DNA of 22,860 bases from IMG/VR virus record IMGVR_UViG_3300025781_000084, positions 1-22,860 of that record; one strand, written 5' to 3'. The notes under the pieces are model-generated. The model was not told the origin of the DNA. It saw only the letters and a program-made list of their open reading frames with translations, and did no database searches. Positions 3,661 to 11,972 of this stretch are shown one piece after another (positions within the stretch are counted from its first letter, which is position 1; each line of letters begins with the position of its first letter). The DNA comes from a virus. The translations under genes were made by a program, and so were the position numbers.

Positions 3661-4503
3661 TCATACCTCATCATTTAAAAATCTCATAATAGAATTTTCT
3701 GGAATTGATATCATTTTATTTTTTTTAGTAGATCTGGTTCTTTTTTCAGAAATAACTGATTGTGTCTTAACTCCGGCAGTACCAGCAAGCAATAAGATAA
3801 TTGCTAATGGATCAAATACAATCACAATAGAAAATATAACAAATCTTACTGCTTCATCAAAATGCTGAGGAGCATCTTTACCATAAATGACTTCAGCAAT
3901 ATACTTTAAAGGTCCAACTTCAGAAGTTTCTGTTGCCTGTTTTGTCTTTAATGGTAAAAGCTTAGCATTAATATTTTCAAGATTAGTAGAAGCAGACTGA
4001 ATTTCTAAATTTAAATTTTCTCGTTCTACTTTTTGATGAGATCTAATAGATACTGAATTCTTTACATCTAAAGAATTTACTTGTTTATCTAAAGTATCAA
4101 GTGCCGTTTGAGCATTTTTTAGCTTACGTTCTTCAAGTTGAAGTTGATATTCTAATGGTTGAATTTGTAATTCTGATCGATTTACATTATCTGCGGTTGC
4201 TAGATGCGCTCTAGACAAATAACCAAAAGTACCCATTGAAGTCAATAAAATAAGAATTCCCGTGGCTACTACAAGATATGTTCTAATAATCTTGGAGCAA
4301 GTATTCCAATTATATTGAAGCCATGCGGCAGAAACTACTTTACTAAATTCTAATGCAGAAGCCATAACAATAGCTGCAGTACTAGCACCAGAAAATAGTA
4401 TAGACATACCTGCTACAGAAAAGTATGCTGATACACAAGATAAAAATAATGCAGAAATTATAGCAAAATGACTGCTAGTAAATGATGTTTTTAATCCTGG
4501 CAT
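3661..4503 (-). CDS. Multi-pass membrane protein with central coiled coil
   Basis: 280 residues. About four hydrophobic segments in two groups: residues 10-55, 73-95 and near 217-245 (FVIFSIVIVFDPLAIILLLAG). Between them lies a long charged helical region (about 105-195, rich in Glu, Lys, Leu and Gln) that should form a coiled coil. The C-terminal tail is basic. I cannot assign a function. Similar proteins lie near gp33/gp59 in marine T4-like phages, as far as I recall. The gp33 start follows two bases after its stop. Confidence 0.7.
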   Translation of the reverse strand: MPGLKTSFTSSHFAIISALFLSCVSAYFSVAGMSILFSGASTAAIVMASALEFSKVVSAAWLQYNWNTCSKIIRTYLVVATGILILLTSMGTFGYLSRAHLATADNVNRSELQIQPLEYQLQLEERKLKNAQTALDTLDKQVNSLDVKNSVSIRSHQKVERENLNLEIQSASTNLENINAKLLPLKTKQATETSEVGPLKYIAEVIYGKDAPQHFDEAVRFVIFSIVIVFDPLAIILLLAGTAGVKTQSVISEKRTRSTKKNKMISIPENSIMRFLNDEV

Positions 4504-4685: not shown

Positions 4686-4917
4686 AATTAGGCAATTCCT
4701 CTAATTCGAATCCAAGTTTGTCTATAATTTCATGTAAAACATCACGTTCATTATAACTTACGCCATTATAGCAGTGCGCAATAGGTTCTTGTAAGATAAT
4801 AATAGGAGGTTTGTCTTCATAATAAATGGTAGTTTTTGCTCCATAAGAACTAGAAGGTCCACATTGTTCACATTCGTATAAATCTTCTAACCATTCGATG
4901 GTAATTTTATTAGGCAT
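4678..4917 (-). CDS. Small unknown protein
   Basis: 79 residues, acidic. A single CEQC pair near residue 15 and no membrane segment. The start overlaps the upstream stop by 8 bases (ATGCCTAA) and the stop overlaps the next start by 8 bases, so it belongs to a tightly coupled operon with the genes on both sides. No function assigned. Confidence 0.65.
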   Translation of the reverse strand: MPNKITIEWLEDLYECEQCGPSSSYGAKTTIYYEDKPPIIILQEPIAHCYNGVSYNERDVLHEIIDKLGFELEELPNYD

Positions 4918-5347
4918 CTGCTAATTCCATACATACAAATTCACCATTCTCTACAGTGACTTGAATACGCTTTCCAGCTGAACATCGCAAATAATCACGA
5001 CCGCCATCTACCATAATACTGCCTTTTGTGCGATAATCGTGTCGATATCTAGATACCAATACTTCTCCATCATGACACAAAAGTCCAATTACAGGTTTTT
5101 CAAAACAAGATTCTGCATTTGTAATCATTACACTTTTATCATCTCTAAACATTCCAAAAAAATTGGAATGCCCTTTAGATCGATCAGGATTTTTAACATA
5201 AAATACATCTACAGGAATATCATTCCATCCACCGGAAAGACGCTTGGTGCACCAATATCCAAGATACTTACCATTATATTTATCTTCAATAATTTTAATT
5301 TGAGATTCATTAAAATGAAATCCATTTTTAGGAATACTAATGTACAT
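4910..5347 (-). CDS. Unknown soluble protein, first gene of its operon
   Basis: 145 residues with mixed alpha/beta composition and several Cys (CTKRL, ESCFEK, LLCHDG, LRCSAG). It starts at 5347, 8 bases after AGGA, and lies downstream of the early promoter at 5363-5391. No family recognised. The operon runs from here towards gp32. Confidence 0.65.
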   Translation of the reverse strand: MYISIPKNGFHFNESQIKIIEDKYNGKYLGYWCTKRLSGGWNDIPVDVFYVKNPDRSKGHSNFFGMFRDDKSVMITNAESCFEKPVIGLLCHDGEVLVSRYRHDYRTKGSIMVDGGRDYLRCSAGKRIQVTVENGEFVCMELADA

Positions 5348-5362
5348 AATATTTTCCTGTTT

Positions 5363-5391
5363 ATAATATATTCATTGTGTGATTGTGTAAA
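5363..5391 (-). promoter_or_regulatory. Early sigma70-like promoter
   Basis: On the minus strand TTTACA (5391-5386), a 17-base spacer and TATTAT (5368-5363), 16 bases before the start codon at 5347. It directly follows the displaced tmRNA module. Confidence 0.6.
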
Positions 5392-5394
5392 TGA

Positions 5395-5469
5395 AAGTTG
5401 ATTCTGTTTCCACGCTCAACTTCCAAAGCGCAGTAGAGATTAAGCTGCTAGAGCCATCTCTACATAATT
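5395..5469 (-). ncRNA. Displaced tmRNA 3' module (tag end, P5, pseudoknot)
   Basis: The minus strand encodes a tmRNA-like tag ending NYVEMALAA followed by TAA. The stop lies in the loop of a perfect 8-bp hairpin (GTAGAGAT 5463-5456 with ATCTCTAC 5440-5433), as in tmRNA helix P5. An H-type pseudoknot follows: stem 1 CGCT (5430-5427) with AGCG (5416-5413), stem 2 AAGTTG (5422-5417) with CAACTT (5400-5395). No resume codon, PK1 or tRNA-like part lies upstream. It matches in architecture the module at 6069-6151 and is best read as the original tmRNA 3' end, separated from the rest by the endonuclease gene. Confidence 0.65.
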
Positions 5470-5474
5470 GTATA

Positions 5475-5482
5475 TATAAATA
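5475..5482 (+). promoter_or_regulatory. T4-type late promoter for the homing endonuclease
   Basis: Exact TATAAATA on the plus strand, 62 bases before the endonuclease ATG. It lies a few bases outside the displaced tmRNA module. Late control of homing endonucleases is known from T4 (I-TevI). Confidence 0.65.
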
Positions 5483-5543
5483 TAATGTAGATCGCGGCAA
5501 CGTCCCTGAAGCCCACCTACTCTAGAAACCAGGAGAATCCAGC

Positions 5544-6122
5544 ATGTCTATTTATACAGGTTACGTATATCTTTGGTATGACACCAAAGCTAAATTCTTT
5601 TATCTTGGCGGCCACAAAGGAAAAGTTGAAGACTCTTATATATGCTCTAATATAATGATGTTAAGAGCATATAAAAAACGGCCAAAAACTTGTAAATTTC
5701 GTGTTCTAGAGTATGTTTATGGTGACAATAAAGATTTACGTGAAGCAGAACAACGTTGGTTGAATCTTATCAAAGATGAGGAGCTTTACTGGACACAAAA
5801 CATTTACAATAACACAGCTAAATATTATAATAAAAAGAAATTTTCTGCTGGAGGTAATGGTTCAGCTAACAAAGGTAAAATCAGATCTGATGAAACCTTA
5901 CGTAAGATGAGCGAAGTACAAAAAAATAAAATTCCATGGAATAAAGGTAAAAAAGGTTTACAAAAATCAAAAATGAAAGGAAAAAATGGAACGTTTATTT
6001 ACTCTGAAGATCTCAAAAAAAGAATGTCTGAAAAGAAAAAGGAATATTGGAAAAATAAAAAAATAAGTGATGCTGTTTATTTGACAGAGCACAGCATCAA
6101 AGCTCCGAATGATTTAGATTAG
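5544..6122 (+). CDS. GIY-YIG homing endonuclease with NUMOD3-like repeats, inserted in the tmRNA locus
   Basis: 192 residues. The N-terminal GIY-YIG-like nuclease domain has TGYVYLWYD (5-13) and FFYLGGHKG (18-26); the second motif reads YLGG. The candidate catalytic Glu is in REAEQRWL. Residues about 100-170 hold basic NUMOD3-like DNA-binding repeats (NKGKIRSDETLRKMSE, PWNKGKKG, KMKGKNGTF). AGGAG precedes the ATG by 8 bases. It is the only plus-strand gene between 1841 and the window end. Its last 20 codons (after KKISDAV) are antisense to the P5 hairpin, pseudoknot and terminator of the tmRNA, and its stop overlaps the tmRNA tag stop. On its other side lies a second tmRNA 3' module. This suggests the endonuclease entered the tmRNA gene and carried a replacement 3' end. 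Confidence 0.85.
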   Translation: MSIYTGYVYLWYDTKAKFFYLGGHKGKVEDSYICSNIMMLRAYKKRPKTCKFRVLEYVYGDNKDLREAEQRWLNLIKDEELYWTQNIYNNTAKYYNKKKFSAGGNGSANKGKIRSDETLRKMSEVQKNKIPWNKGKKGLQKSKMKGKNGTFIYSEDLKKRMSEKKKEYWKNKKISDAVYLTEHSIKAPNDLD

Positions 6123-6403
6123 GCAGCCATTTTCATAGCTACAAAATCATTATCATTGCTAGCAATAAAGTTAGCATTTACAGTTTTGGACTAATTGGCG
6201 GCCGTTCCTTGCCGTGTCCTACTCTCGCCTCTTCCTATCCGTCGAAATCTAGGTCAGGCCCATAAGAAGATACATGCTTGCCCAAGGTTGCGACCCTTTA
6301 CGGACTTACTGCAGCATAACCAGTGCTGACTGCATGTATCTACTGGTGGACCTGCGGGGAATTGCACCCCGGTCCGAATAGATATTGGTCTGGATCAACA
6401 GAC
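6048..6403 (-). ncRNA. ssrA: Phage-encoded circularly permuted (two-piece) tmRNA
   Basis: tmRNA rescues stalled ribosomes and tags the nascent protein. Reading the minus strand: a 5' hairpin GTCTG/CAGAC (6403-6388); then the acceptor piece with a T-arm CGGGG-TGCAATT-CCCCG (6371-6355) ending CAGGTCCACCA at 6344. An 82-base intervening segment (6343-6262) is closed by a perfect 10-bp stem (6341-6332 with 6277-6268). The coding piece begins GGGCCTG at 6261, which pairs with CAGGTCC to form the 7-bp acceptor stem, followed by the conserved ATTTCGACGG. Helix P2 joins CGGATAG (6241-6235) to CTATTCG (6381-6375). PK1: GGCG/CGCC (6229-6226, 6200-6197) and GGAC/GTCC (6219-6216, 6191-6188). Twelve bases later is the resume codon GCT (6175). 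The tag is ANFIASNDNDFVAMKMAA, stop at 6119. P5 AATGATTT/AAATCATT (6151-6144, 6115-6108) and a second pseudoknot (6106-6069) follow. The 3-piece order is that of alphaproteobacterial permuted tmRNA. The T-loop has G where U55 is usual. Confidence 0.9.
6049..6098 (-). terminator. Terminator / terminal pseudoknot of the tmRNA precursor
   Basis: GATGCTGT (6098-6091) pairs with ACAGCATC (6076-6069), followed on the minus strand by a T-rich tract (6068-6049, seven T in a row). The stem is also stem 2 of the tmRNA pseudoknot. It lies within the endonuclease coding sequence. Confidence 0.6.
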
Positions 6404-6408
6404 AAACT

Positions 6409-6416
6409 TATTTATA
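6409..6416 (-). promoter_or_regulatory. T4-type late promoter of the tmRNA
   Basis: Exact TATAAATA on the minus strand. A start about 6 bases downstream would fall at 6403, exactly at the 5' hairpin of the acceptor piece. Confidence 0.75.
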
Positions 6417-6542
6417 TTAATCTCTTTCAAAATGATGAGTAGTGCTTTGATCAACTATATTAGAATATACTCGTTTATTATTTTCAGATGTTTCTTTATA
6501 TCTCCAGCCTTTATCAGCCATTGATTTTCTAAAATGTTTATT

Positions 6543-9170: not shown

Positions 9171-9605
9171 TTAATCGGAAAATATCGAGACTGTTTTATT
9201 TTTCTTTCTATACCATCTAGATAAAATATTGTCATTATAATATTCTTCACTATTTAAAACATCACGAATGACTTGTTCTCGCATTTCATGATAATTAACA
9301 TCACCTCTAGAAACATGAAGTGATAATATAGTCCTACTAAAGGACTCTTTACCATATAAAATTATATCTTCTTTAAGAGACTTTGAACTTCCATAATACG
9401 TTTTCCAGTCAGAATATTTACGTACAATTTTTCTTCTGGTTTTACCTTTTTGTACTATTCTGTTTGTGGAATAGAAGTATTTTCTTCCGATATATTTTTT
9501 ATTCGTAATTTTATTCTGTATAAGATATACAAAACCAAAATAATCGCAGATATGCTCTTCTGTAAAAGGTGCATTGTTCCAAAGCCAGGGATTCTCATAC
9601 TCCAC
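9171..9605 (-). CDS. GIY-YIG family nuclease
   Basis: 144 residues. GFVYLIQNK (24-32) and KKYIGRKY (36-43) are the GIY and YIG motifs. The block KTRRKIVRKYSDWKTYYGSS, then GKESFSRTIL and the helix with MREQVIRDVL (candidate catalytic Glu) are like a nuclease family common in T4-like phages. There is no separate DNA-binding domain, so it may be a free-standing endonuclease. It starts with GTG that shares its G with the TAG stop of the zinc-ribbon gene. Confidence 0.8.
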   Translation of the reverse strand: MEYENPWLWNNAPFTEEHICDYFGFVYLIQNKITNKKYIGRKYFYSTNRIVQKGKTRRKIVRKYSDWKTYYGSSKSLKEDIILYGKESFSRTILSLHVSRGDVNYHEMREQVIRDVLNSEEYYNDNILSRWYRKKNKTVSIFSD

Positions 9606-11354: not shown

Positions 11355-11624
11355 TTAATAATCAATTCTAACATATTTTTTTATAAGATTTGTTTCTATA
11401 GTATAAGCTAAACATTCATCTTCAATATTTTGAGCATAAAATTCAATAATAGGAGAATATCCTAATTTTTTTAATTTTCTTATTTTTGCATTTTTTCTAT
11501 TATTTTCAGAACATAATAATTCATTTTCTCTAAAATGAGATAGAGCTTTATCATCTTTTCCTTTACCAATATAGAATACTTTATTATTTCTTGGATCGAT
11601 TAGCCCATACACATAATAGGTCAT
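11355..11624 (-). CDS. Possible separately expressed GIY-YIG nuclease (internal start)
   Basis: An in-frame ATG at 11624 begins MTYYVYGLIDPRNNKVFYIG, exactly where the GIY-YIG domain begins, giving an 89-residue stand-alone domain. AAAGGA and a late promoter precede it. This would give the fusion protein early and the bare nuclease late. Confidence 0.4.
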   Translation of the reverse strand: MTYYVYGLIDPRNNKVFYIGKGKDDKALSHFRENELLCSENNRKNAKIRKLKKLGYSPIIEFYAQNIEDECLAYTIETNLIKKYVRIDY

Positions 11625-11972
11625 TTCAGTATCCTTTATTTTATTTATAAAGACTGTACCATCTACATATGTAATATGTTCTTCAGTATGATTCGTATTA
11701 AAACAAAAAATATTATATTTTCTATAATCTAAAGTTGGAGTAACATCAATTAATTGATCACCAGTATTAAGCACTGAATGCTTGAATGCATGCAAAATAT
11801 TATGACTATCTTTTACTATATAATATCCTAAGACCGGATTTATTTCACAATTTTTATGGCATAAGAATGGTTGATCAGTCTCTCTTGGAGAGATAATTAT
11901 TTCTCGTAATTGTGTTGCACCTAAAGCTTTAGCAAAATCTATACATTCTTCAATATCAGGAATAAAATACAT
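11355..11972 (-). CDS. Fusion: Cys/His/Asp-triad domain plus GIY-YIG nuclease domain
   Basis: 205 residues. Residues 1-112 resemble small proteins with a conserved CHxNC...GYYIVK...HAFKHSV...LIDVTP pattern; C38 (or C42), H65 and D76 could form a thiol-hydrolase-like triad (inference). Residues 117-205 are a complete GIY-YIG domain of the LEM3-like kind (YYVYGLIDPRNNKVFYIGKGK, with E193 in the late helix). At the junction there is an internal ATG (11624) with AAAGGA 7 bases before it and an exact TATAAATA box upstream. The start codon overlaps the nrdB stop (TAATG). Confidence 0.65.
   Translation of the reverse strand: MYFIPDIEECIDFAKALGATQLREIIISPRETDQPFLCHKNCEINPVLGYYIVKDSHNILHAFKHSVLNTGDQLIDVTPTLDYRKYNIFCFNTNHTEEHITYVDGTVFINKIKDTEMTYYVYGLIDPRNNKVFYIGKGKDDKALSHFRENELLCSENNRKNAKIRKLKKLGYSPIIEFYAQNIEDECLAYTIETNLIKKYVRIDY
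11642..11649 (-). promoter_or_regulatory. T4-type late promoter inside the fusion gene
   Basis: Exact TATAAATA on the minus strand, ending 17 bases before the internal ATG at 11624. The predicted start falls directly before AAAGGA. Confidence 0.5.

Follow-up and report, generated by a model that had tools for sequence, protein, structure and literature searches.

tmRNA, a ribosome-rescue RNA, is encoded by an RNA gene of nearly all bacteria. The window analysed here, i.e., the whole stretch of DNA under study, is a 22.9-kb virus record with T4-like genes (gp32, a primase-like gene, NrdA and Thy1, assigned with PHROGs and Pfam), in which a homing endonuclease gene lies between two tmRNA 3' modules. 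The locus raises the question of how an endonuclease gene can split a tmRNA gene and leave a complete tmRNA behind. The comparisons described below point, with a probability that we place at roughly 90%, to an intron-less homing element that is dedicated to the permuted tmRNA genes of phages and would insert in the tag region together with a carried replacement.

A complete permuted tmRNA gene in the window

On the minus strand, ARAGORN detects a permuted tmRNA (tmRNA*) at 6436-6028, with the acceptor part first and the coding part last, and the Rfam family of the permuted, two-piece type (RF04321) matches at 6404-6119 (-) with 99.3 bits (E=1.4e-18) over its complete model (1-213). T-arm, CCA and tag region are found in the permuted order, and the T-loop is uninterrupted in the RF04321 alignment. 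The current tag, ANFIASNDNDFVAMKMAA followed by a stop codon, lies at 6119-6175 (-) according to ARAGORN and the alignment with relatives, by which its start, the resume codon, was placed. Its frame ends in small hydrophobic residues and stops inside the P5 loop, as is expected of a permuted tmRNA. The tag alignment reveals conserved N-D-N codons (6149-6157, minus strand), before which the window tag is extended in the same manner as the tags of relatives with the same element type. A conserved stretch, CAAAACTGTAAATG, precedes the resume codon (6175-6188, minus strand); it is recognised from the tag alignment and from the unit shared by loci L239 and L240, of which it marks the left border, and it probably represents the left homology arm of the element.

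The functional 3' module is antisense to the endonuclease C-terminus

The functional 3' module, which we regard as element-borne, consists of P5 around the tag stop and an H-type pseudoknot (6068-6151, minus strand). P5 pairs 6151-6144 with 6115-6108 (8 bp), stem S1 pairs 6107-6102 with 6090-6085 (6 bp) and stem S2 pairs 6099-6091 with 6076-6068 (9 bp). None of 500 dinucleotide shuffles equalled this pseudoknot, and the folding z-score of the module is -5.5; together with the RF04321 match, these values bear out the claim of the sequence-only reading that a functional module on the tmRNA strand is antisense to the endonuclease C-terminus. The stop codons of the two genes, TAG of the endonuclease (6120-6122, plus strand) and TAA of the tag (6121-6119, minus strand), share two bases in antisense (6119-6122). 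The overlap between the endonuclease reading frame and the module measures 54 nt, i.e., the last 18 codons (17 codons and the stop), so that the earlier figure of 20 codons was only approximately right. A terminator, which had also been proposed for the tmRNA strand, is not supported: no terminator-like site is found at the functional module, and the T-run that follows the pseudoknot is lost in L098, L107 and L240.

Because a first pseudoknot search that was anchored on the predicted P5 proved fragile for diverged modules, the final search was run without this anchor. Covariation of stem pairs, which had been suggested as a check on both modules, is present in the native as well as in the element-borne type.

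A stranded native 3' end beyond the endonuclease

The second module (5390-5472, minus strand) lies upstream of the endonuclease promoter, in the interval between this promoter and the neighbouring gene. It shows the same order of parts, with P5 at 5463-5456/5440-5433 (8 bp), S1 at 5432-5428/5415-5411 (5-6 bp) and S2 at 5425-5416/5401-5392 (10 bp), and it encodes N-Y-V-E-M-A-L-A-A-stop (the first N being placed in brackets in our feature list), which closely resembles ANDNVATYEMALAA, the tag of the endonuclease-free L175, L181 and L184. A covariance model of native modules was built from 14 3' modules of endonuclease-free permuted tmRNAs collected by a DNA pattern; in their alignment 95% of the pairs are formed and 23 cells are changed on both sides. 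In the window, this model matches 5472-5390 (-) with 59.1 bits (E=6.9e-15), and the only other match listed reaches 11.4 bits (E=0.086). The pseudoknot is equalled by none of 500 shuffles and the folding z-score is -3.8. A tmRNA 3' end stranded beyond the endonuclease, as the sequence-only reading had described it, is therefore well supported. The functional module is absent from the listed matches of the native model, and since only the stranded module is listed, the two belong to different types.

Complete stranded native modules are located directly beside the endonuclease promoter at eight distinct loci (window, L107, L216, L227, L234, L240, L248 and L254). Statistically, the window, L227 and L234 are strongly supported, and L107, L240 and L254 moderately so. 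On structure alone, the support is weak for L216 and L248, whose shuffle results are the poorest (50 and 85 of 500 shuffles, respectively). The native model also misses the diverged stranded modules of L107, L216 and L254, which are identified by their anatomy and by the pseudoknot tests. In the L098 family, the native 3' end is reduced to a pseudoknot relic.

The two modules, which flank the endonuclease with the same order of parts and in the same orientation, could also be copies of a single tmRNA 3' end that was locally duplicated in tandem, with an unrelated endonuclease landing between them. The dissimilarity of the two window modules, only one of which is found by the native model, speaks against this. 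In addition, the functional module matches endonuclease loci (L200, L239 and L240, with 80-84% identity), whereas the stranded one matches endonuclease-free tmRNAs, and module and endonuclease travel as one segment. We thus consider a tandem duplication extremely improbable, and favour the displacement of a native 3' end by a homing element.

Empty, occupied and loss alleles

The proposed insertion calls for relatives in which the tmRNA is uninterrupted and carries a 3' part of the stranded type. A search for such relatives, as the sequence-only reading had suggested, yielded many (L061, L172, L175, L178-L181, L184, L186 and others). A gene for a 145-amino acid protein (4910-5347, minus strand) serves as a synteny marker: in the endonuclease-free L061, the tmRNA is directly followed by this gene and then by gp32, while it comes after the stranded module in the window and after the relic in L098. 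At the sequence level, the right flanks of L178, which is empty and has an intact native tmRNA, and of the occupied L098 agree at 96.9% over 127 nt, and L098 shares 95.5% over 66 nt with L205, which has a replaced module and lacks the endonuclease. Likewise, the right flank of L107, which is occupied and contains a stranded native module, is 95.4% identical over 367 nt to that of L199, which lacks the endonuclease; the replaced modules of L107 and L199 are identical letter for letter. Occupancy is sporadic, and a single site can exist in empty and occupied forms (L178/L098/L205; L107/L199), as is characteristic of homing. Stranded native 3' ends start directly after the codons equivalent to N-D-N in most lineages. 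The stranded part, the synteny of L061 and the flank identity of L178 and L098 together support the view that the endonuclease inserted within the tag-coding part and displaced the original 3' end.

An endonuclease-free relative with a module of the 6151-6069 type had been named in advance as evidence against an insertion, and among the relatives collected L195, L199 and L205 formally are such cases. They could suggest that the endonuclease-type module is an older natural variant of tmRNA, to which the endonuclease is merely adjacent, with L199 and L205 as the ancestral state. However, L195 retains a scar from the 3' end of the endonuclease gene and, after it, a remnant of a native-type module, and L199 agrees in module and flank with the occupied L107, where a stranded native module is retained. 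These three loci are for this reason best read as having lost the endonuclease. Furthermore, an older variant would leave the stranded native modules unexplained, and we regard it as quite unlikely compared with the insertion and later loss of a homing element.

When the flanks of the insertion are joined in silico, ARAGORN recognises a tmRNA in L227, L234, L248 and L254, with the ordinary tags VASNDNFVAYGEMALAA, ANSNGALALAA, ANDNRLVAVAA and ANDNALEMAA, respectively. ARAGORN recognises none of the joined flanks of the window, L107, L216 and L240; for L107, L216 and L240, it also finds no tmRNA in the unjoined locus. A search for a nearby empty site returned the L175 group only and no endonuclease-free locus closely related to the window, so that we infer the window's own empty site from more distant loci.

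As a separate observation, the right flanks of L178 (5470-5580), L098 and L205 contain a long hairpin, CTTAGATGAACC...GGTTCTTCTAAG, after the native tmRNA, and matching changes on both of its arms are seen in the related L061 and L179.

A mobile unit that crosses unrelated tmRNA genes

The extent of the element can be mapped where it occurs in otherwise unrelated surroundings. L239 (333-kb contig) and L240 (102-kb contig) have a 929-bp unit in common with 92.5% identity, which approaches 100% across the tag, P5, the pseudoknot and the 3' half of the endonuclease. The unit extends from CAAAAAACGTAAATGC, immediately ahead of the resume codon, into the endonuclease leader; outside of it, the tmRNA bodies and the right flanks are unrelated. 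The tmRNA 5' bodies are 58% identical, compared with 99% for the module. By correspondence with this unit and by blastn against relatives, the mobile unit of the window maps to 5475-6188 and comprises the left homology patch, the whole tag, P5 and the pseudoknot on the minus strand, and the endonuclease with its leader and late promoter on the plus strand. The sequence-only reading had proposed that the endonuclease restores the tmRNA with its own copy of the 3' end; this remains valid, but the unit is larger than assumed: with a start just ahead of the resume codon, it supplies the tag in full.

The window shows the same discrepancy. Compared with L200, L205, L199, L239 and L240, its tmRNA body is 55-64% identical and its 3' module 80-84%, whereas the 554 pairs with a body identity of at most 66% average 60% (sd 8) in the module. 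The tmRNA gene of the window (6028-6436, minus strand) is thus, judged by its sequence, a chimera. In line with this, the endonuclease N-terminus of the window is 87% identical to that of L098, compared with 68% for gp32 and about 53% for the 145-amino acid protein, as is expected for horizontal spread.

A further possibility is that a cassette of a whole foreign tmRNA and the endonuclease replaced the resident tmRNA except for its 3' tip, in which case the tmRNA would not be the target of the endonuclease. A complete tmRNA does adjoin the stranded tip, and the left recombination points could be located anywhere upstream. Nevertheless, the identity between L239 and L240 ends just before the resume codon, with divergent tmRNA 5' bodies; the retained tips mostly begin after the same codons in many lineages; and the endonuclease clade is almost always found at tmRNA 3' ends. 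A cassette replacement therefore appears very unlikely. The duplicated modules, the unit shared by L239 and L240 and the empty, occupied and loss alleles instead argue that the element homes into tmRNA genes and displaces the native 3' end.

The endonuclease, its promoter and its leader

The endonuclease gene (5544-6122, plus strand) encodes a putative 192-amino acid protein of the GIY-YIG/NUMOD3 kind. It matches the homing endonuclease family phrog_314 (E=6.9e-10) and the DNA-binding module NUMOD3 (PF07460) with 26.9 bits at a cut-off of 20.4. Sequence comparison of eight diverse members revealed the invariant GIY-YIG-type residues G-Y-x-Y, Y-x-G-G-H, R46, E69 and N86. The Pfam GIY-YIG domain itself is matched in three of eight relatives, with E=0.0034 at best, and the window protein matches NUMOD3 alone. 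The assignment to the GIY-YIG type is suggested by motif and family matches.

The gene is preceded by TATAAATA (5475-5482, plus strand), the T4 late-promoter word, which also forms the right border of the mobile unit, and by a structured 5' leader of the mRNA (5483-5543, plus strand). In nearly all family members, TATAAATA is found at the same place and is followed by a two-stem leader and a ribosome-binding site. The two-stem leader (5483-5530, plus strand, in the window) is conserved with strong covariation: across its homologues 97% of the pairs are formed, 57 cells are changed on both sides, and none of 500 shuffles equals it. It is also present in L264, L269 and L277, which are cousins away from tmRNA, and thus belongs to the endonuclease family and not to the tmRNA. 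Possibly, it acts as a translational operator.

Extension of the clade by a protein-alignment search yielded about 24 distinct phage lineages, nearly all of them antisense to the 3' end of a permuted tmRNA. Of the members that share a similar N-terminal domain, almost all are convergent with a permuted tmRNA. In all 24 lineages compared, the endonuclease stop is located in or directly beside the tag, P5 or pseudoknot region. The C-termini vary between the lineages, because each one is read from a different tmRNA module. In the stretches retrieved, the distant cousins L264, L269, L277, L278 and L281 are located away from tmRNA genes; the cultured relatives in Sinorhizobium and Rhizobium phages (<60% identity) likewise lie elsewhere, flanked by other genes and without a tmRNA match. 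Scanning bacterial genomes with the endonuclease alignment revealed no relative, and comparing the locus with annotated phages at the DNA level gave nothing useful.

L200 (= L265 2728-3441) has an N-terminal domain of the HNH/homing-endonuclease type (phrog_655, phrog_12434), while the rest of the protein matches the tmRNA endonuclease and is followed by the same tmRNA module. By these matches, L200 is a catalytic-domain swap in the same niche. In other loci (L114-L116, L284-L287), the endonuclease is decayed and the tmRNA module intact.

Some further observations count against the main reading. Occupied loci such as L091, L110, L112, L230, L231, L237, L239 and others have no stranded module, which implies that the relics were lost or that some copies spread with larger segments. 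In L091/L093, the module carried in the endonuclease strand is native-like.

The tags also differ in length, those of the element type being usually longer before N-D-N. Twelve of the distinct tag types listed show the longest spacing there, and every one of these comes from a locus that bears the endonuclease or has lost it, while the shortest spacing is seen in endonuclease-free native tags, with one ambiguous call (L061).

A proposed homing mechanism and its consequences

From this arrangement we infer the cut site, the order of repair, the timing of expression, the function of the tmRNA and a self-protection through the tag. The unit would be laid out as two converging and overlapping parts, with the pre-resume stretch, the full tag, P5 and the pseudoknot on one strand, and the late promoter, the leader and the endonuclease on the other. 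The endonuclease would cut the empty tmRNA gene of a co-infecting phage near the conserved N-D-N codons. The left end would be resected and repaired from the donor via the homologous resume-codon region, with co-conversion of the tag start, and the right end would be joined at the native tag end of the recipient, for which, in donors that retain a stranded native module, this module possibly supplies homology. The recipient would thereby gain the endonuclease and the replacement 3' end, and its tmRNA would be complete with a new tag. Its own native 3' end would be left stranded downstream, where it would decay, as in L098, or disappear, as at many loci. At a later stage, the endonuclease may decay, as in L114-L116 and L284-L287, or be lost, and the replacement 3' end would persist.

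A cut near N-D-N with co-conversion to the left fits the observation that native parts begin after N-D-N and that the donor part reaches the resume-codon region. One-sided co-conversion is known for I-TevI (PMC2988022). The longer tag before N-D-N and the changed downstream sequence may protect the donor from its own enzyme.

We consider it likely that these elements constitute an undescribed class of phage selfish elements, which would home into a structured RNA gene, remain harmless by carrying the whole tag and the 3' domain in antisense, spread new degradation tags and resist cutting through the extended tag. Such elements would add a third way for mobile DNA to inhabit tmRNA, beside self-splicing introns and integrase islands, and would explain how phage tmRNA tags can change in one step. 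Across some two dozen lineages, each with its own C-terminus, one DNA stretch has to serve both a protein end and a pseudoknotted RNA, which provides a natural test bed for overlapping constraint. The elements are also a warning that gene finders can misplace the 3' ends of phage tmRNAs.

Relation to known mobile elements

The closest parallels are the mORFs, mobile ORF elements of fungal mitochondria, which are known from atp6 in Allomyces (Paquin 1994, as cited in PMC3630166) and from atp6, atp9, cox2 and nad3 in Glomus (PMC3630166). Both systems combine a free-standing homing endonuclease with a foreign replacement terminus and a native end stranded downstream. In contrast to the phage element, mORFs reside in protein genes of mitochondria, their endonuclease is on the same strand and it is mostly LAGLIDADG (one GIY-YIG). 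The phage element targets a structured RNA and has an opposite-strand endonuclease with an antisense C-terminus; it works like the mORFs, but is not a member of them. To our knowledge, the replacement-end strategy is otherwise known only from these fungal mitochondrial protein genes; that it also occurs in phages, with an RNA gene as the target, suggests a general and overlooked strategy.

SegA-SegG of T4-like phages resemble the endonuclease described here by their GIY-YIG type, their phage context and their intron-less homing, and middle or late promoters are known for some T4 endonucleases; in contrast, they are intergenic genes that cut hundreds of bases or more away, and the available part of the source reports no replacement end of a target gene (PMC2988022).

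In tmRNA genes, group I introns of the T-loop, some with LAGLIDADG genes, are also homing elements, but they restore the RNA by self-splicing, whereas the phage element is intron-less, sits in the tag region and relies on a carried copy (PMC11915505). Integrase islands share the logic of an insertion that keeps the tmRNA complete (PMC11915505). The phage element differs from them in having no integrase and no att repeat, and the end that it carries is a divergent allele, with which the tag changes as a whole. Since both kinds of insertion are known in tmRNA genes (PMC11915505), one of them might be present here as it is in bacteria. Yet no group I intron family is among the Rfam matches of the window, no integrase is among the window ORFs examined, and the flanking modules are divergent and unlike the direct repeats of att sites; this explanation can practically be dismissed in favour of an intron-less element with a carried replacement. 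The two-piece (permuted) tmRNA of Melnitz belongs to the same RNA class and occurs in myophages, with no homing endonuclease mentioned (PMC9004378). In the searchable open literature, absence from which is no proof, no report of free-standing endonucleases in tmRNA was found.

Additional observations

Three features were noted beside the main locus. L239 has a match to skipping-rope RNA (Rfam RF02924, 46.8 bits) at 3974-4066 (-), within the tmRNA region. In the window, 9171-9605 (-) encodes a SegE-like GIY-YIG endonuclease (PF19835, E=1.7e-37), and its PHROGs label, NAD synthetase (phrog_447), is probably a mislabel. Directly behind the NrdB-like gene of the window, the reading frame at 11355-11972 (-) has a C-terminal part that matches a LEM-3-like GIY-YIG domain (PF22945), and its product may be a fusion of a phage protein with a further endonuclease.
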